Source: Prevotella sp.
Lineage (GTDB): Bacteria > Bacteroidota > Bacteroidia > Bacteroidales > Bacteroidaceae
Assembly: GCA_017459445.1 (NCBI GenBank)
Contig: JAFUDJ010000019.1
Location: forward strand, 1-64,000
Direction of reading: 5' to 3'
DNA: 64,000 bases
The notes beneath the pieces are model-generated. The model was not told the DNA's origin, did no database searches, and saw nothing but the letters and a program-made list of their open reading frames with translations. Shown here piece after piece: positions 49,358-64,000 of the stretch. The first letter of the stretch is position 1. Every line of letters begins with the position of its first letter. Made by a program: the position numbers and the translations under genes.

Positions 49358-49365
49358 GTAACTTT
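49358..49365 (+). promoter_or_regulatory. Promoter -7 element for the small nuclease-family gene
   Basis: TAACTTTG, about 30 bases before the ATG at 49394, with CCTTGG near the -33 position. Confidence 0.65.
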
Positions 49366-49393
49366 GCAAACGAATATTGTTTTGTTAAAGCAT

Positions 49394-49735
49394 ATGGACA
49401 TATTAGAGCGTATGCCGTGGATGGCCCAGAATGCTGTGTTCAAGCGGCTCTCTGAGATTGCCGAGGTAGCCTCGCTAAACAAGGACGAACGCAGGAAGTA
49501 CGACGAGAGCCTCCGTGCTTACCGTGACACAATAGCTGTTATGAACGGGCAATTCCAGCAGGGCGAGCAGAAAGGTCGTGTAGAAGGTCGTGCAGAAGGT
49601 CGTGCAGAAGGTAATATTGAAGGCCGGACGGAAGAAAGATTTGACATAGCCCGTAAGATGAAGCAGAAAGGGATGGCCGCTGAGGTGATAGCAGACATAA
49701 CGAGTCTCACCGCAAAGGAGATAGAAGAACTTTGA
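49394..49735 (+). CDS. C-terminal fragment of a PD-(D/E)XK (Rpn-like) transposase-family protein
   Basis: About 113 residues from MDILERMPWMAQNAVFKRL; a TTG ten codons upstream lies on the -7 element. The text matches the C-terminal third of 'Rpn family / PD-(D/E)XK nuclease family transposase' proteins: the ERMPWMAQNAVFKRLSEIAE block, the YDESLRAYRDTIAVM helix, a charged (GRxEG)n repeat (QKGRVEGRAEGRAEGN), and a final helix pair ITSLTAKEIEEL. The N-terminal catalytic domain of about 190 residues is missing. Yet the piece starts right behind a good promoter and is open to its end, so it may be expressed as a stand-alone protein rather than be plain debris. Confidence 0.6.
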   Translation: MDILERMPWMAQNAVFKRLSEIAEVASLNKDERRKYDESLRAYRDTIAVMNGQFQQGEQKGRVEGRAEGRAEGNIEGRTEERFDIARKMKQKGMAAEVIADITSLTAKEIEEL

Positions 49736-49790: not shown

Positions 49791-52331
49791 ATGAGAAAAC
49801 TTTACTTATTAAAAACAATGCTCCTGCTATGCGCAATCATAGTGGGAAGCGGCTCGATGTGGGCAGAAACTAAGACATCGTGGGTGAAGACTGCCCCCGC
49901 AGACCTTGTAACGGGCGACGTAGTAGCTATCGTTGACCAAACCAGTGTTACGGCGATGTCAAACGACAACGGGACTTCTTCCGCTCCTGCCGCAACGTCT
50001 GTAACGCTGAACGCAGACAAGTCGGAAATAACAAGTACGGTGGCCGAGACTTTGGAATGGGTCGTGACCGTTACAACCGAAGACAACGTTCGTTCTTATC
50101 AGTTTGGCGTTGGTGAAAACTACCTTTACACGACTACTAGTAACAATGGCCTTCGTGTAGGTCCTACTACGACAAACAGTCACAATGTATGTGGTATATA
50201 CAATAATAATGGTACGGATTTTGTTACAATTTATGATGGCTCTAAAACCCGTTATGTTGGCGTATATAATTCACAAGACTGGCGAAGTTATACCTCAATA
50301 AACACAAACATCGAGAAATGTGTCACCGCTTTCTATAAAAAAGTGACCGTTGACAATGGCAAGACAGACATTGCTACTATTGGCACGGACTTGACCCCAA
50401 CTGAGGTGAATGTTGAAGATGAAGGAACATTCGCTGTAGGCATGACTTTTGCATCACAGGATGCCACCGACTATGAAGTGACATGGACTTCCAGCGACAC
50501 TGAGGTTCTTGACGTGGACAATTCTGGTTACTATCAGGCTTATGCTGCTGGCTCTGTAATAGTTACCGTCAAGGTTGAACCTGTTGATGACGATACATAT
50601 AATGCAGTAAGTCGCCAGTTTACCGTCACTGTCACTGACCCCAATGCTCCTGGTACGCTGAATAATCCTTATACTGTAGCTCAGGCTATCGCAGCAACAC
50701 CGACAAGCGGCACATTGGAAAATGTCTATATCAAGGGTGTTGTTTCGTCATTCTATAACACTAATATCATGGGGGATGGCACGAACTATCGCTACTATAT
50801 TTCTGATAAAGACGGAGAAGACGAACTTCTTGTCTTCAGAGGAAAAGGAAAGGACAATGTGGCATTTTCCGATGTTGATGACCTCCAGATTGATGACGAG
50901 ATTGTGATATATGGTGGCTTGAAAATTTACAGTAATGCCCCAGAAGTCGTCGACAGCTATATTATTACCTTGAGTCGTGTTGAAAAGGCTGATGCCGAGT
51001 TCTCGTTTGGCGAGACTACGGCGTTCTCTGTTGATAAGTTCCTTGAGTTTGAGGCTCCTACACTGACTTATGCTGAAGGCTTTGATGGCTCTGTCGTCTA
51101 TAAGAGTTCTGACGTTGATGTTGCTGAGGTCGACATGGAAACAGGTGCTATCACTGTGAAGGCTAAGGGTGAAACTACTATCAGCGCAAGCTCTCTTTCC
51201 ACGGATAACTTCAAGGCTGGTTATGCATCGTACACCCTGACCGTTACTGCCAATGCTGATGTTAACCCCGTCGGACCTTCAGCAACGGGTGGCAAGTTTG
51301 TGAAGGTGACTAAGACAGAGGATATTACTGATAACGATGATTCTTATCTGATTGTTTACGAGGAGGAAGGTGTCGCTTTTGATGGTAGTTTATCAACACT
51401 TGATGCGGGAAATAACGTCATTTCGGTAACTCTTGACAAAGAAAAAAACGAAATTGCGGCTACAAATGAACTCTTGAATTCCACGTTTGCTATCAATGTA
51501 ACATCAGGAACGGTGAAAAGTGCTTCTGGCTACTATATTGGTGTTAGTACTTATAGCAATGGGCTGAGACAGACCAACAGCGAAGAAAGTCCTTATACAA
51601 ATGATATTTCTATTGATGAAAGTGGAAATTTGTTGATATCAAATACCATAGAAGATAAGGGTACAATGACGCTATACTTTAATCCGAATAGCGGAGATAA
51701 TAATTATCGTTTCCGTTTCTATAAGGGAGAAAGTAGTACGGCTAAGCCCGTTCAGCTTTATAAGTATGTTCCAGGCGAGACTCCACTCTTCTTCGACGTA
51801 GAGGTTGGTGAGGCAGGTTACAAGACGCTTGTTAGCACGGTAGGCTTTACCGCTCCTGAGAATGCTGCTGCCTATATCGTAACAGCTCAGACGAGTGATG
51901 AGATTACGTTGACGAAGGTTGCGCAGGTTCCTGCTGGTGAGCCAGTCATTCTGAAGGGCGAGGGAACTGTTTCTTTGGTCATAGATGAATATTCTGACGG
52001 TGTCAAAGAAGAATTTGAGGCTGCTAACCTGTTGAAGATTAGCGACGAGAACACCAAGAGCGGTGTGTATGTGCTGTACAATGGTGACGAGGGCGTAGGC
52101 TTCTACGAGTGGACTGGTGGCTCCTTAGGTGCTGGCCGCGTCTATCTGCCCGCCGCTAACGGTGCCCGCAAGTTCCTGGCCTTCAACTTTGGTGGCGAGA
52201 CTACGGGTATCAAGGATGTGAATCGTGAGGCAGCAGCCAACGGCAATTACTATAACCTCAACGGTCAGCGTGTTGCTCAGCCCGCCAAGGGCCTCTATAT
52301 CGTCAATGGCAAGAAATACATTGTTAAATAA
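49791..52331 (+). CDS. Large secreted modular protein with shared C-terminal tail
   Basis: 846 residues, more A+T-rich than its neighbours. Signal peptide 1-26 (GSGSMWAE). Beta-rich modules follow: about 30-190 (lectin-like, related to the 510-660 segment), Ig-like BIG2 domains (about 200-285, TWTSSDTEVLDVDNSGYYQA; and about 400-490), and an OB-fold-like domain in between (about 290-395, VYIKGVVSSFYNTNIMGDG). The last 190 residues (DVEVGEAGYKTLVSTVGFTA, VPAGEPVILKGEG) end in YYNLNGQRVAQPAKGLYIV plus NGKKYIVK, nearly the same as the end of the interrupted gene at 62857. That tail is type IX sorting-like. No catalytic motif seen; probably a surface-exposed binding protein. Confidence 0.72.
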   Translation: MRKLYLLKTMLLLCAIIVGSGSMWAETKTSWVKTAPADLVTGDVVAIVDQTSVTAMSNDNGTSSAPAATSVTLNADKSEITSTVAETLEWVVTVTTEDNVRSYQFGVGENYLYTTTSNNGLRVGPTTTNSHNVCGIYNNNGTDFVTIYDGSKTRYVGVYNSQDWRSYTSINTNIEKCVTAFYKKVTVDNGKTDIATIGTDLTPTEVNVEDEGTFAVGMTFASQDATDYEVTWTSSDTEVLDVDNSGYYQAYAAGSVIVTVKVEPVDDDTYNAVSRQFTVTVTDPNAPGTLNNPYTVAQAIAATPTSGTLENVYIKGVVSSFYNTNIMGDGTNYRYYISDKDGEDELLVFRGKGKDNVAFSDVDDLQIDDEIVIYGGLKIYSNAPEVVDSYIITLSRVEKADAEFSFGETTAFSVDKFLEFEAPTLTYAEGFDGSVVYKSSDVDVAEVDMETGAITVKAKGETTISASSLSTDNFKAGYASYTLTVTANADVNPVGPSATGGKFVKVTKTEDITDNDDSYLIVYEEEGVAFDGSLSTLDAGNNVISVTLDKEKNEIAATNELLNSTFAINVTSGTVKSASGYYIGVSTYSNGLRQTNSEESPYTNDISIDESGNLLISNTIEDKGTMTLYFNPNSGDNNYRFRFYKGESSTAKPVQLYKYVPGETPLFFDVEVGEAGYKTLVSTVGFTAPENAAAYIVTAQTSDEITLTKVAQVPAGEPVILKGEGTVSLVIDEYSDGVKEEFEAANLLKISDENTKSGVYVLYNGDEGVGFYEWTGGSLGAGRVYLPAANGARKFLAFNFGGETTGIKDVNREAAANGNYYNLNGQRVAQPAKGLYIVNGKKYIVK

Positions 52332-52349
52332 ATAAAGCAACTAACGATT

Positions 52350-52538
52350 ATGAAGAAGATATATATTACGCCCGCTACGCAGGCTATTCTTATGGATGCC
52401 GTCCTGCTGCAAGCTGCATCGACCGAAACAGTTGGTGTAAAGGAAGGAAAGGCTACTGACCCTAATAAGCTGCTTGGCCGTCGTGGCTACTACGACCCGG
52501 AGCTTGACGAGGAACTTGAAGAAGAGGAAGAGTTCTAA
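52350..52538 (+). CDS. Small acidic-tailed protein, partner of the secreted protein
   Basis: 62 residues, 18 bases after the large secreted gene. N-terminus MKKIYITPATQAILMDAVLL, a variable middle, then LLGRRGYYDPELDEELEEEEE. No signal peptide of the usual kind and no known domain. A second gene with the same plan (MKKVYIAPAT...VLGRGGFFDDSED) follows the large gene at 62857 at the same spacing. The conserved start and LGRxG-acidic end around a variable middle look like a precursor or anchor peptide, but function is unknown. A strong hairpin follows at 52568. Confidence 0.8.
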   Translation: MKKIYITPATQAILMDAVLLQAASTETVGVKEGKATDPNKLLGRRGYYDPELDEELEEEEEF

Positions 52539-52567
52539 GTAAGCAGTAAAAACCAAATACGCTGAAC

Positions 52568-52609
52568 AAGGGGACGTACAGGAGTGTGAAGCCTGTGCGT
52601 CCCCTTCTA
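52568..52609 (+). terminator. Strong hairpin after the small-protein gene
   Basis: AAGGGGACGTACAGG pairs with CCTGTGCGTCCCCTT (one wobble) across 9 bases, followed by CTAGTTT. The T-run is weak, so it may also protect the 3' end. Confidence 0.75.
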
Positions 52610-57510: not shown

Positions 57511-60243
57511 ATGAAAAAGCTACTATCCTTACCGCCTAATCTCGTGGACAGTTTCCATGACGTGACGGGCTTTTCGCGTGACGAATTCTTCTGTACCAGC
57601 GACCCCATCGGTCACCGGTTAGGCTCAGGCGGCGGCACGACATGGCTGCTGCAGCAGGCCAGCCAGTGGCTGGGCGGCGAGCGCTGCATCGTGCTGCATG
57701 CCGGCGGACAGAGCCGCCGCCTGCCGGCATACGCGCCCAGCGGTAAGATACTCACCCCCATCCCTGTGTTCCGCTGGGAGCGCGGCCAGCGCCTGTCGCA
57801 GACCTTGCTCGACCTGCAGCTGCCGCTCTATGAACGCATGATGGCCCAGGCTCCTTCCCGCCTGAGGACGATGATAGTCAGCGGCGACGTTTATATCCGT
57901 GCTGCCGAGCGCATCGGCCCGATTCCCGATGCCGACGTGGTGTGCTACGGCCTGTGGCTCGACGCCTCCATTGCCAAGGACCATGGCGTCTTCGTCAGCG
58001 ACCGCCGTTCGCCGAACGTACTGAAGCAGATGCTGCAAAAGCCCTCAGTCGAGTGCCTGTCCGAGTTGCAGCGCGACCATTTCTACCTCACCGACATCGG
58101 CATCTGGCTGCTCAGCGACAAGGCTGTACAGCTTTTGGAGAAGAGAAGTGTGGAACCTGCGAGCCCTGCGGGTCCTACAGGCCCTATGAGTCCCATTGGT
58201 CCCCTGAGGGAATACGACCTCTACGCCGAGTTCGGCTGTGCGTTAGGCACCGACCCCACCATCGACGATGCTGAGCTGCGCAGCCTGTCGGTGGCCATCG
58301 TGCCGCTGGCGGGTGGCGAGTTCTACCACTTTGGCACGTCGGCCGAGATGATTTCCTCGACGGTGGCCATCCAGAACCTCGTCAACGACCAGCGCGACAT
58401 CATGCACCACGACCGCAAGCCGCACCCCACTATCTTTACGCAGAACGCCGTGACGCACTATCGCTTTACCAGCCAGAACACCAACATCTGGGTAGAGAAC
58501 AGCTGCGTGGGACCGCACTGGACGCTGACGCACGACAACATCGTGACGGGAGTGCCCGAGAACGACTGGACCGTCACGCTGGAGCCGGGCCAATGTATCG
58601 ACGTCGTCCCTATCGGCGACACGCAATATTGTGTGCGCCGTTACCATATCAGCGACCGTTTTGCCGGCGCTGAGCAGCAGCGCCGCCAGTTCCCTGTGGT
58701 GGACAGTCTGGAGGACATCGGTCGTATCGTGCAGCAGCCTGCCGCCGATAATTCTCAATTATCCATTGTCAATTATCAATTACTAAGTGCTGAGGATATT
58801 TCCAATCAGGCTAACCTGCGCCGTCTCTTTGCACAGCGTAAGGCCTTCCGTGCACAGAATTGGCCCGCCTTGGCCCGCAACTGGCAGCACTCAGTGTTCT
58901 ACCAGCTCGACCTCGACGATGCCGCCCGGGAGTTCCGCGACTTGCAGCTGCCGTTGCCGCCGCCTGTCGGCGACGACGCCCCGCTCATGATTCGCATCCA
59001 CGACGCCATGTTCCGCGACCAGAGCGACCGCGCCTTCAGCCTCTTGCGCGACGGCCTTGTGAACTCCGGGCATGCCGGCATGCCCGGGCTGTCCGGCTAT
59101 GCCCCATGCCCCGCTCCCCGCCTCTCCGTCCATGCCGACCAGATAGTGTGGGGGCGTTCGCCGGTGCGCATCGACCTGGCAGGCGGATGGACCGACACGC
59201 CGCCCTACTGCCTGATGGAAGGCGGCAGCGTGGTGAACATCGCCATCGAGCTGAACGGCCAGCCGCCCCTGCAGGTATATATCAAGCCCAGCAAGGAGCT
59301 ACGCATCGTGCTCCGCAGCATCGACCTCGGCGCCATGGAGGTCGTAGAGACCTACGAACAGCTGGCTGCCTACAACAAGGTTGGCTCGCCGTTCTCCATT
59401 CCCAAGGCCGCCTTGGCACTGGCCGGTTTCCTGCCCGCCTTCTCTGGTGAGTCGTTTGCGTCGCTCAGCAGTCAGCTACAGGCTTTCGGCAGCGGCATCG
59501 AGCTGACGCTGCTCTCTGCCATCCCCGCCGGCAGCGGGTTGGGCACGAGTAGCATCCTGGCCTCCACGGTGTTAGGAGCCGTCAGCGACTTCTGCTCGCT
59601 GGCGTGGGACAAAAACGAGATAGGGCGCCGCACCCTTGTGCTGGAACAGTTGCTGACTACCGGCGGCGGCTGGCAGGACCAGTTCGGCGGCGTCTTAGGC
59701 GGCGTGAAGCTGTTGGAGACGTCGCGTGGCTTCGACCAGAACCCGCTGGTGCGCTGGCTGCCCGACGGCATCTTCACGCTCCCCGAGTATCGGCAGTGCC
59801 ATCTGCTATACTATACCGGCATCACCCGTACTGCCAAGACAATACTGGGCGAAATCGTGCGCCGCATGTTCCTCAACCATCAGGAGGAGATACGCCAGCT
59901 GCGCTCCATGAAAGCCCATGCACAGGATATGTATGAGGCCATCCAGCGGCAGGATTTCGCTGCGACGGGCCGCCTCATTCTCAAGACGTGGCAGCAGAAC
60001 CAGCTCATCGACAGCGGCACCAATCCCGACGGTGTGCGTCGCATCACCGACCTCGTCGATGACCTCTGCTTAGGCTATAAGCTGCCGGGAGCCGGCGGTG
60101 GCGGATACCTCTACATGGTGGCCAAGGACCCGGAGGCTGCCGCCCGCATCAAGCAGCTGCTGAACAACAACCGCATGAACGCCAACGCCCGCTTCGTCGA
60201 CATGACGCTGTCCAAGACAGGCCTCCAAGTCTCGCGCAGCTGA
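57511..60243 (+). CDS. fkp: Bifunctional L-fucokinase / GDP-L-fucose pyrophosphorylase Fkp
   Basis: 910 residues. The N-terminal pyrophosphorylase half (about 35-410) has VLHAGGQSRRLPAYAPSGKI, the nucleotide-binding loop, then a beta-helix part (NTNIWVENSCVGPHWTLTHD). The C-terminal GHMP kinase (about 543-905) has SPVRIDLAGGWTDTPPY, IPAGSGLGTSSILASTVLG (ATP loop) and LPGAGGGGYLYMVAK. It converts L-fucose to fucose-1-phosphate and then GDP-fucose in the cytosol, for fucosylated surface glycans. Three repeat-derived segments are inserted: about 218-232 (collagen-like GPTGP), 414-424 (heptamers), and 519-526 (a 22-bp palindrome), all in loops or between the halves. Confidence 0.95.
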   Translation: MKKLLSLPPNLVDSFHDVTGFSRDEFFCTSDPIGHRLGSGGGTTWLLQQASQWLGGERCIVLHAGGQSRRLPAYAPSGKILTPIPVFRWERGQRLSQTLLDLQLPLYERMMAQAPSRLRTMIVSGDVYIRAAERIGPIPDADVVCYGLWLDASIAKDHGVFVSDRRSPNVLKQMLQKPSVECLSELQRDHFYLTDIGIWLLSDKAVQLLEKRSVEPASPAGPTGPMSPIGPLREYDLYAEFGCALGTDPTIDDAELRSLSVAIVPLAGGEFYHFGTSAEMISSTVAIQNLVNDQRDIMHHDRKPHPTIFTQNAVTHYRFTSQNTNIWVENSCVGPHWTLTHDNIVTGVPENDWTVTLEPGQCIDVVPIGDTQYCVRRYHISDRFAGAEQQRRQFPVVDSLEDIGRIVQQPAADNSQLSIVNYQLLSAEDISNQANLRRLFAQRKAFRAQNWPALARNWQHSVFYQLDLDDAAREFRDLQLPLPPPVGDDAPLMIRIHDAMFRDQSDRAFSLLRDGLVNSGHAGMPGLSGYAPCPAPRLSVHADQIVWGRSPVRIDLAGGWTDTPPYCLMEGGSVVNIAIELNGQPPLQVYIKPSKELRIVLRSIDLGAMEVVETYEQLAAYNKVGSPFSIPKAALALAGFLPAFSGESFASLSSQLQAFGSGIELTLLSAIPAGSGLGTSSILASTVLGAVSDFCSLAWDKNEIGRRTLVLEQLLTTGGGWQDQFGGVLGGVKLLETSRGFDQNPLVRWLPDGIFTLPEYRQCHLLYYTGITRTAKTILGEIVRRMFLNHQEEIRQLRSMKAHAQDMYEAIQRQDFAATGRLILKTWQQNQLIDSGTNPDGVRRITDLVDDLCLGYKLPGAGGGGYLYMVAKDPEAAARIKQLLNNNRMNANARFVDMTLSKTGLQVSRS
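58164..58207 (+). repeat. In-frame CCTATGAGTCC-type 9-bp repeats in fkp
   Basis: CCTGCGGGT-CCTACAGGC-CCTATGAGT-CCCATTGGT-CCC, four 9-base units in frame, encode PAGPTGPMSPIGP in a loop of the pyrophosphorylase half. Confidence 0.7.
58751..58783 (+). repeat. In-frame TCAATTR heptamers in fkp
   Basis: TCTCAATTATCCATTGTCAA and following units encode SQLSIVNYQLL at the junction between the two halves of Fkp. Same family as the intercistronic arrays at 31521, 42845 and 47572. Confidence 0.85.
59066..59087 (+). repeat. Perfect 22-bp palindrome in fkp
   Basis: CCGGGCATGCC directly joined to its reverse complement GGCATGCCCGG, encoding GHAGMPG just before the kinase half. Confidence 0.75.
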
Positions 60244-62563: not shown

Positions 62564-62641
62564 GAGAGGCTGTGACAAGGGCGAAGCAGGGCACGAACAG
62601 TTATCAATCACCACCGCTGTCGCCTTTTGGCACAGCCTCTC
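62564..62641. repeat. Long hairpin downstream of the second small-protein gene
   Basis: GAGAGGCTGTG (62564) pairs perfectly with CACAGCCTCTC (62631), and the stem continues imperfectly inward (AGGGCGA with TCGCCTTTT). It corresponds in position to the hairpin at 52568. The 62215-62654 gap contains this, the terminator, the 22-bp array and the 20-bp repeat, and no gene I believe. Confidence 0.75.
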
Positions 62642-62856: not shown

Positions 62857-64000
62857 TTATTTCATGATTACTTTCTTGCCATTCACAATATAGAGACCCT
62901 TTGCAGGCTGGGCTACACGCTGACCAGCGAGGTTGTAGTACACATTCTCCAGTGCGCTTACAGCTTTTACGCCCTCAACAGCCGTAATGTCTTCGTCGAA
63001 GGCAAGGACAAGACGAGCGCCGGAAACTTCTGAAGTCGTCTCCAGATAAGCCTTGCCAGCATCGGGTGACAAAGAATCGCCCACTTTGTAGAAACCATAG
63101 TCTTCACCTTGTTTAGCAAACACATACTGTGTTTTCTCTGCATTGTAGATGTCGCCGCCAGTTGTCGGTTTAAGTAGGTTGTCGCCAATTGATGTAGTGC
63201 AAATAGTAGTGGGAATCTCAGTTGTTGCACCAGCTAAGAAAAGACCTGTCTGAGCAGGTACTTTGCCCGTAACCTGTGTCATATTCACCTTGCCAGTAGC
63301 TGCAGACTCTGCACGATAAGCTTTTACAGTAGTGATTCCTGTAAAGTCTAGAGGATAAATAGAAGAGAATGTTGCATAACCTGCATCGCTGATAGTGGCG
63401 GGGACGTTTACTAATGTCGGAGCGACCCATTTGTAATCAGAGAAATTGACCGTAAGATTATAGTAGCCATCGGCAGTGACGCTGGCATTCCCTTGATTCG
63501 TGTCTATCCACTCATTATCGCCCTCTTTTTTATAAGCATAGTATTTGAGGTCTTTGCCGTTAATGCCCACAAACTGGTAGCCGTCATCGTAATTTGCAGA
63601 GCTTACCTCTAATGGCGCAATACCAGTTTATATGTTTGAACTACGAGAGGTTTCTGACAAATAATGTGTTTCAGTGGACCATCCGTTATATCCAGACGCA
63701 ACAGCGATAAGCCTAGTTACTGTACATGCTCCTGTTGAGGGAGTAAAATCAATTTGTAATGCTCTTGCAATCGTGCTACTTACAGGATAAGTAAGGACAT
63801 AATTGTTTGCTCCTTTTTCCATTGTTGGTGTGTTGTTCCCGTCTATTCCCCAGTTGTTTCCAGCATTCTTAGGGCGATAAGCATTATCCCAATTAAATGT
63901 TGTTCCTTCGAAAATGGTAAAAAGTAGATTGTCGTAATCTTTTGGCAAGTTAAGTATATACGAATATGTGCCATCTCCATTGTCTGTCATGGTGCCATTT
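62857..64000 (-). pseudogene. Secreted modular protein interrupted by an in-frame stop; 5' end outside window
   Basis: About 380 codons are visible in one frame, broken once by TAA at 63630-63628. Before the stop: GYNGWSTETHYLSETS, and after it: GIAPLEVSSANYDDGYQFVG, together a SusE/SusF-like starch-binding or CBM type module (xYNGWS...). The C-terminal 190 residues match those of the gene at 49791 (ISDAGYATFSSIYPLDF, KAYLETTSEVSGARLVLAFD, VYYNLAGQRVAQPAKGLYIV). Protein similarity continues smoothly across the stop, so this is a single nonsense change rather than two genes. A recent mutation, a sequencing error or read-through would each explain it. Confidence 0.7.

Follow-up and report, generated by a model that had tools for sequence, protein, structure and literature searches.

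Tiny YxxP peptide genes paired with exported-protein genes in Prevotella as candidate precursors for a distant peptide-processing operon

The window analyzed here is a stretch of 64,000 nucleotides of Prevotella sp. (assembly GCA_017459445.1, contig JAFUDJ010000019.1, positions 1 to 64,000, forward strand), which carries two units where a gene for a large secreted protein with a distinctive C-terminal tail is followed by a tiny gene coding for a peptide with a YxxP motif near its start (Table 1). In the first unit, the 846-residue protein displays a signal-peptide-like stretch at its N-terminus (by eye) and has the C-terminal sequence NLNGQRVAQPAKGLYIVNGKKYIVK (also given as ...YYNLNGQRVAQPAKGLYIVNGKKYIVK), and the small gene 18 bases behind it encodes a protein that starts with MKKIYITPAT and ends in LGRRGYYDPELDEELEEEEEF. 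In the second, the small gene lies 19 bases behind the tail stop codon (62857-62859, minus strand), and the order of tail, 18-19 nucleotides, small gene and hairpin is common to both units. A sequence-only reading of the window had proposed precisely such a two-gene module recurring with equal order, spacing and ending, which the spacings and the hairpins of both copies confirm. It had placed the second copy at 62.5-64 kb; there the small gene, the spacing and the hairpin hold up, but the tail frame is open for only 256 codons, and because the in-frame stop at 63628-63630 limits it so, the large gene of this copy looks interrupted in the assembly. Upstream of this stop, on the minus strand, there is a further open frame of 120-123 codons that is still open at the window end.

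Table 1. Coordinates of the two units in the window (positions of the whole stretch).
Feature	Position	Strand	Basis or remarks
Large secreted partner protein, 846 residues	49791..52331	+	Open reading frame (ORF); Big_2 Ig-like domain matches; C-terminal tail
C-terminal tail of the 846-residue protein, resembling motif D/E of the type IX secretion system (T9SS) (GLYIVNGKK...K)	52197..52328	+	Tail profile, profile comparison
Small YxxP peptide gene, 62 residues	52350..52538	+	Leader-like codons 1-24, variable middle, LGRRG-acidic end
YxxP motif, Y5-P8 of the 62-residue protein	52362..52373	+	Invariant in 16 aligned own-genome members; position of the motif bound by the lasso-type recognition element (RRE) of ribosomally synthesized and post-translationally modified peptides (RiPPs)
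15-bp hairpin behind the 62-residue gene, terminator-like	52568..52606	+	Stem search
Second small YxxP peptide gene, 60 residues	62655..62837	-	ORF, small-protein profile
3' part of the second tail protein frame, 256 codons	62857..63627	-	In-frame stop at 63628-63630
Hairpin behind the 60-residue gene	62564..62641	-	Stem search

The small proteins begin with MKKxYxxPxxxVxxI, followed by a hydrophobic stretch and then a small-residue site (LLAxS, MIAxS). K2, K3, Y5, P8, S24 and R44 are invariant in all 16 aligned members from the same genome, most of which came from a plain similarity search at E up to 10. In a wider alignment the tyrosine and proline are present in 50/50 proteins, a circular count as 45 of these were picked with a pattern requiring [YFH]..P, and the leucine after YxxP is variable. 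These 45 belong to the 52 small proteins found next to tails elsewhere (see below), those of L150, L152, L171, L174, L185, L190 and L209 being omitted, and L177, a relative with the proline replaced, also stands outside the alignment. Across 68 genes, the region from residue 27 to the end is 29% aspartate or glutamate and has no cysteine (10/68 have one nearer the start), on which ground we rejected the cysteine-based RiPP classes. The last 14 residues are 39% acidic on average and in 56/68 genes include an aromatic residue adjoining or one away from an acidic one, and G/S/A-R occurs in the last 25 positions in 45/68. No signal peptide is recognizable in these proteins by eye, and searches with Pfam and NCBIfam returned no convincing match, the single-member matches to an IS982 transposase (E 0.031) and a fluorinase (E 0.0024) being rejected as chance. 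A search of solved structures with the family gave one match (E 0.04), a fusion protein, likewise taken as chance. Four of the 50 weakly match the lasso precursor model NF033528 (best E 0.017).

At the codon level, the conserved proline uses all four of its codons (67 genes) and the lysines use both of theirs. Eight paralogue pairs, chosen for flank similarity, are 68-100% identical at ungapped positions over the upstream 75 nucleotides and the first 8 codons; the middle of the small gene reaches 23-40% when gaps are counted (65% for the youngest pair), and three of the eight regain 86-92% identity at ungapped positions over the downstream 300 nucleotides. One pair combines 86% identity upstream and 92% downstream with 38% (24% with gaps) in the middle. 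In a tandem pair on contig C26, the proportion of synonymous differences (pS) is 0.06 over the first 24 codons, and over the remainder pS is 0.73 and the nonsynonymous proportion (pN) 0.29. These alignments indicate that the variable part either undergoes exchange as a segment or changes more rapidly than the sequence on both sides, yet is held to a protein sequence. Synonymous variation together with pN below pS thus supports the small genes as real coding genes.

The pairing recurs across the source genome, a 1.97-Mb assembly that is 55% complete. A profile of 16 small proteins gives 24 matches in it and an N-terminal profile one more (C37), of which 22 are counted after excluding two genes truncated at contig ends (C44, C38) and a chance match (C20, E 0.34). 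A protein matching the tail profile lies 18-272 nucleotides upstream in 19 of these 22 genes, all with readable upstream sequence, the unpaired ones being C3:72906 (internal stop), C17:99620 and C37:67653. Thirteen tails of paired genes went into that profile, making the count partly circular, and the pairs of C4, C25, C11b, C36 and C16 are its independent tests (along with C26b, with a tail identical to one used). The chance of a small gene falling within 300 nucleotides of one of the 84 tail matches of the genome, which include weak ones with E up to 10, is about 0.006 for each, and the observed pairing is far beyond it. With 84 tail matches and 19 paired small genes, many tails have no small partner. 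Among matches above 70 bits, 16/17 are paired, but this figure is circular, as the profile was built from paired tails, and is not used as support. The earlier claim of a genuine, recurrent gene pair with conserved ends around a divergent middle is upheld in this genome. In the units with long gaps (C11, C26, C35, C41), the small genes start 166-272 nucleotides behind the tail, and an AT-rich spacer, conserved and containing AAATCCTTT-like repeats, stands before several of them and may provide them with a promoter of their own.

Small-protein matches are found in 10 of 11 other genomes of the genus (congeners), and tail pairing in 15 of the 26 small-gene-anchored loci that were returned out of 49 congener matches. 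Small genes lying mostly away from tails, which the sequence-only reading had named as the finding contrary to its pair, are accordingly not what the two sets show. Of the 11 unpaired congener genes, six (two of them near-identical) directly precede a gene for an exported protein (by eye), one (L090) stands behind a diverged tail and one (L089) near a contig end. The congener G010, the only one without matches to the T9SS protein SprA, to TIGR04183 or to the tail, still has two small genes, both preceding exported proteins (by eye). As some peptides precede exported proteins and a genome without detected T9SS or tails has two, the pairing is not obligatory.

A tail-anchored search elsewhere gave 438 confirmed places, the best 80 of which were kept; in 52 of these 80 a small gene lies within 250 nucleotides, mostly at 18-19. 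The scan is biased towards tail-bearing loci, its profile having been made from paired tails. The set includes L147, which ends at the tail. Two further small genes, missed by the pattern, were seen by eye in L143 (where the frame runs into the next gene) and L177. All 80 loci are labelled Bacteroidales and include the cultured Prevotella multiformis and Hoylesella loescheii. Two variants deserve separate mention: in L143 (4154-5500 of a Bacteroidales assembly), the YxxP frame lacks a stop and extends, as a 449-codon frame, into the following gene, reaching its signal-peptide-like region, and in L135 and L208 the tail is followed, after 9 and 87 nucleotides, by a different tiny gene for a lipoprotein-like protein of 54-57 residues that replaces the YxxP peptide.

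The tail itself ends in a GxYIV strand and a lysine-rich stretch. The 846-residue protein matches neither TIGR04183 nor PF18962 at E up to 1, and TIGR04183 is not among the families listed for 43 C-terminal regions. In a comparison of the tail profile with 20 type A tails only 17 columns align, with a probability of 47%. For one T9SS cargo, the last 22 residues, holding motifs D and E, are described as sufficient for secretion (PMC10202324); the final residues of our tails resemble these motifs, and we take the tail to be, in all probability, a T9SS signal in shortened form. SprA_N scores over its cut-off in the source genome, indicating that a T9SS is present, and SprA is found in 10/11 congeners, G010 being the exception, and overall in 18/20 relatives. 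Ten partner proteins scanned with Pfam have only Ig-like, repeat or other accessory domains, or none. A T9SS-specific partner role as the general function of the small proteins was rejected, since small genes occur without a detected T9SS.

The YxxP start of the small proteins recalls the YxxPxL motif that is conserved in lasso precursor leaders according to PMC10368454, and because of this likeness RREs were sought. We found an operon coding for a PqqD-type RRE, an HPr-kinase-like kinase and an S24/S26 signal-peptidase-like protease. In the source genome, the single PqqD gene stands with the kinase, the protease and ATP-binding cassette (ABC) exporter genes; nine congeners have one PqqD domain, one has five and one has none. 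In five congeners inspected, a sigma-factor gene (by eye) comes first, then the genes of the kinase and the protease and finally PqqD, with no exporter. A nucleotidyltransferase-like gene (by eye) occurs in some operon neighborhoods of other genomes. Outside L217 and L218, the PqqD, nucleotidyltransferase and sigma-factor calls, like those of the exported neighbors, were made by eye or from profile matches. In four of the five congener loci (L218, L219, L221, L222), a secreted-looking protein of 130-190 residues with no assigned family is encoded between the sigma-factor and the HprK/S24/PqqD genes. The RRE of the source genome matches PF05402 over the cut-off; in NCBIfam it comes closest to two lasso PqqD models, at E 5e-6 and 9e-6 and under the curated thresholds of both, and the solved structure best matching the RRE alignment is the lasso B1 protein TfuB1 (6jx3, E 0.0038). 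In the kinase, H136, K157, D176 and D177 are invariant in 6/6 sequences, and an H-K-D-D motif is reported for lasso tailoring kinases (PMC9266682). The leader peptidase B2 (Transglut_core3, PF13471) is absent from the source genome, as far as the 55% assembly goes, and from 10/11 congeners, with one sub-threshold match in the other. No Asn-synthetase-like cyclase was recognized by eye beside the operon, and no genome-wide search for it was made.

The small peptides track this operon rather than the tail, because the two co-occur across the order, because G010 has the operon and two small genes without a detected T9SS, and because relatives of the peptides are encoded in some such operons elsewhere. 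Among 148 genomes of the order, the small-protein profile matches four and the kinase profile 20, and all four are within the 20 (Fisher p 0.00025; with the source genome removed, 0.0019). Six of 19 other kinase loci (L249, L251, L252, L311, L312, L316) have a small YxxP frame immediately in front of hprK or in the interval between pqqD and hprK; the peptide of L249 has an EEEEF end like that of the window protein. A seventh locus (L245) has such a frame 4.7 kb upstream, just ahead of a lipoprotein-like gene. A fixed pattern finds YxxP frames in 4/6 gaps before hprK versus 3/37 other same-strand gaps (p 0.004), or 5/7 versus 2/36 (p 0.0004) with L316, whose kinase the script missed, moved to the hprK gaps; the reversed pattern finds 0/6 and 2/37. 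A profile comparison of 48 dispersed with seven operon-encoded peptides gives a probability of 92% and E 7.5e-7, values inflated by the shared YxxP selection.

Taken together, we consider it reasonably probable that the two small window proteins, of 62 and 60 residues, serve as leader-core precursors in a RiPP-like system that is guided by an RRE and related to lasso peptides; of the options listed in the sequence-only reading, a precursor peptide is the best supported. From the sequences we infer the following course. The N-terminal MKKxYxxPxxxVxxI....LLAxS would be the leader, with the YxxP strand binding the PqqD-type RRE, which in turn would present the peptide to the HPr-kinase-like kinase and the S24/S26 protease of the operon. 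The latter would cut near the LLAxS site to leave an acidic, cysteine-free product with a middle rich in S/T/G/N and a G/S-R-x-G-[FW]-D/E end, possibly phosphorylated, which is presumed to be exported; in the source genome an ABC exporter gene adjoins the operon. In contrast to ordinary RiPP clusters, the presumed precursor genes of this genome lie scattered outside the operon, and most share a unit with the gene of one exported protein: a T9SS-type tail protein precedes them, and in both window units a hairpin follows. We read this arrangement as a surface-protein gene that carries its private precursor peptide gene, with the product most likely acting at the cell surface, together with the partner protein or under the same conditions. 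A more specific version, which we regard as unlikely, is that one operon produces a whole repertoire of variable surface peptides that correspond one by one to individual surface proteins, so that the scattered genes form a labelling or antigenic-variation system. In that version, the protease would free a new amino terminus and the peptide would be joined to or held by the partner, for example as an amine acceptor for PorU; this T9SS sortase is stated in PMC10202324 to use short-peptide amino groups in addition to anionic lipopolysaccharide (A-LPS).

Several observations count against precursor peptides of this kind. A C-terminal serine, the site of the lasso tailoring kinases, is absent from all 50 peptides of the alignment (by eye), and three congener small genes (L086, L095, L100) have no recognized exported neighbor. 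Among the matches of the operon proteins, those to PF05402 and the ABC domains alone clear the curated cut-offs. The search pattern for frames in the operons was relaxed stepwise after the first find; in the frames of L311, L312 and L316 no ATG was found before the motif, such short frames having been sought by eye in chosen gaps only and not in L313, L318 and L319, and contig ends truncate a number of the kinase loci. In 12 of the 19 kinase loci no YxxP frame was found nearby (three of the genomes concerned carry dispersed ones). Of the 20 kinase-bearing genomes, 16 have no small-peptide match at E 0.001, and some weak kinase matches may come from other HPrK families. There is no precursor beside the operon of the source genome or those of the five congeners. 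Finally, G001 (79% complete) has 13 small-protein matches and no PqqD match, and G004 (99% complete) has PqqD and no small-protein match.

Among the alternatives, the small protein could be a dedicated cytoplasmic chaperone or secretion cofactor with an acidic end masking the basic tail motif until export. The tight pairing with tails in this lineage fits such a role, as do the opposite charges of the GKKxxxK tail end and the acidic last 14 residues, and the hairpin behind both window pairs suggests a shared transcription unit. We nevertheless judge it improbable: tails far outnumber their small partners in the source genome, G010 retains two small genes without SprA, TIGR04183 or a tail, six of the 11 unpaired congener genes directly precede an exported protein instead, and SprA occurs in 7/8 other-family genomes that lack a small-peptide match. 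The chaperone, anchor or immunity partner specific to the tail that the sequence-only reading had offered finds no support in these observations, as the peptides also precede tail-less exported proteins, occur without a detected T9SS and follow the operon. Equally doubtful is an unmodified secreted signal, pheromone or bacteriocin whose receptor or immunity factor would be the partner surface protein; the many paralogues per genome, the variable middle between conserved ends and the signs of segment exchange in the core would suit it. The small proteins lack a signal peptide by eye, no receptor-like domain was seen in the ten partner proteins scanned, and the link to the RRE/kinase/protease operon suggests prior processing. 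This alternative overlaps with the RRE-guided precursor reading and differs from it only in the absence of modification.

A duplicating 3' cassette without a common biochemical function, in which the tail end and spacer carry the small gene with them as they spread, would account for the concentration of similarity between paralogous units in the tail end, spacer and first codons. We hold it to be very unlikely, as amino acids are kept despite synonymous codon change, pN is below pS even in the exchanged core and relatives stand beside the kinase gene in other families. Most improbable of all is a canonical lasso peptide system. The YxxP leader, the discrete RRE, the H-K-D-D kinase and the exporter gene beside the operon of the source genome are what such a system would display, as is the nucleotidyltransferase-like gene of some other genomes, but the B2 result given above, that is, no Transglut_core3 in the source genome and 10/11 congeners and a match below cut-off in the eleventh, disfavors it, and no cyclase-like gene is recognized by eye in the operon neighborhoods.

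Directly before the first tail gene of the window, positions 49364-49735 (plus strand) hold the 3' part of a PD-(D/E)XK transposase-family frame with a GRAEGRAEG repeat (PDDEXK_2, below cut-off), and genes resembling it (by eye) adjoin other small-gene units in L255 and L288. Between the two units, positions 57511-60243 (plus strand) encode a protein of 910 residues that combines a fucose pyrophosphorylase domain with one of the GHMP kinase type and is apparently a bifunctional enzyme of fucose salvage.

Some 20 tiny acidic proteins, mostly behind a large secreted protein, look to be served by a single distant operon, an arrangement that we did not find described. The consulted portions of surveys of Bacteroidales RiPPs (PMC10352776), rumen lasso peptides (PMC7533575) and rumen bacteriocins (PMC13289728) hold no mention of these peptides, and no title or abstract opening listed in searches of the open-licence literature describes such pairs or scattered precursors. 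If the RRE-guided precursor reading is correct, RRE-guided precursors would be far commoner in Prevotella than cluster-based mining shows, which would miss them because most adjoin a surface-protein gene and the enzymes are encoded elsewhere. It would also give an abundant, unannotated class of small proteins in Bacteroidales a first testable role and link peptide modification with surface-protein export.

The closest known systems each share a part of this picture. With the type A cargo of the T9SS (TIGR04183, Por secretion tail), the partner proteins share the GxYIV strand, the lysine-rich C-terminus and SprA in the genome, and differ in the missing family match of the window protein and the short aligned region. 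With the HPr-rel-A system (TIGR04352 kinase, TIGR04353 PqqD), the operon has in common an HprK-related kinase and a PqqD-type chaperone; these models match here with scores far below curated cut-offs, and the comparison covers these two models. HPr kinase, PqqD and nucleotidyltransferase genes are noted in lasso clusters in the rumen lasso survey (PMC7533575). With the lasso systems that feature a tailoring kinase, such as those of paeninodin and pseudomycoidin and the Bradymonas bsf cluster, our system shares the YxxP(xL) leader, the discrete PqqD-type RRE, the HPr-kinase-like kinase with H-K-D-D, the ABC exporter beside the operon of the source genome and, in some relatives, the nucleotidyltransferase-like gene (by eye). 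It differs from them in having an S24/S26 signal-peptidase-like protease and no B2 above cut-off, in the lack of a C-terminal serine in all 50 aligned peptides and, above all, in its roughly 20 dispersed precursors, most of which are encoded beside the gene of an exported protein.

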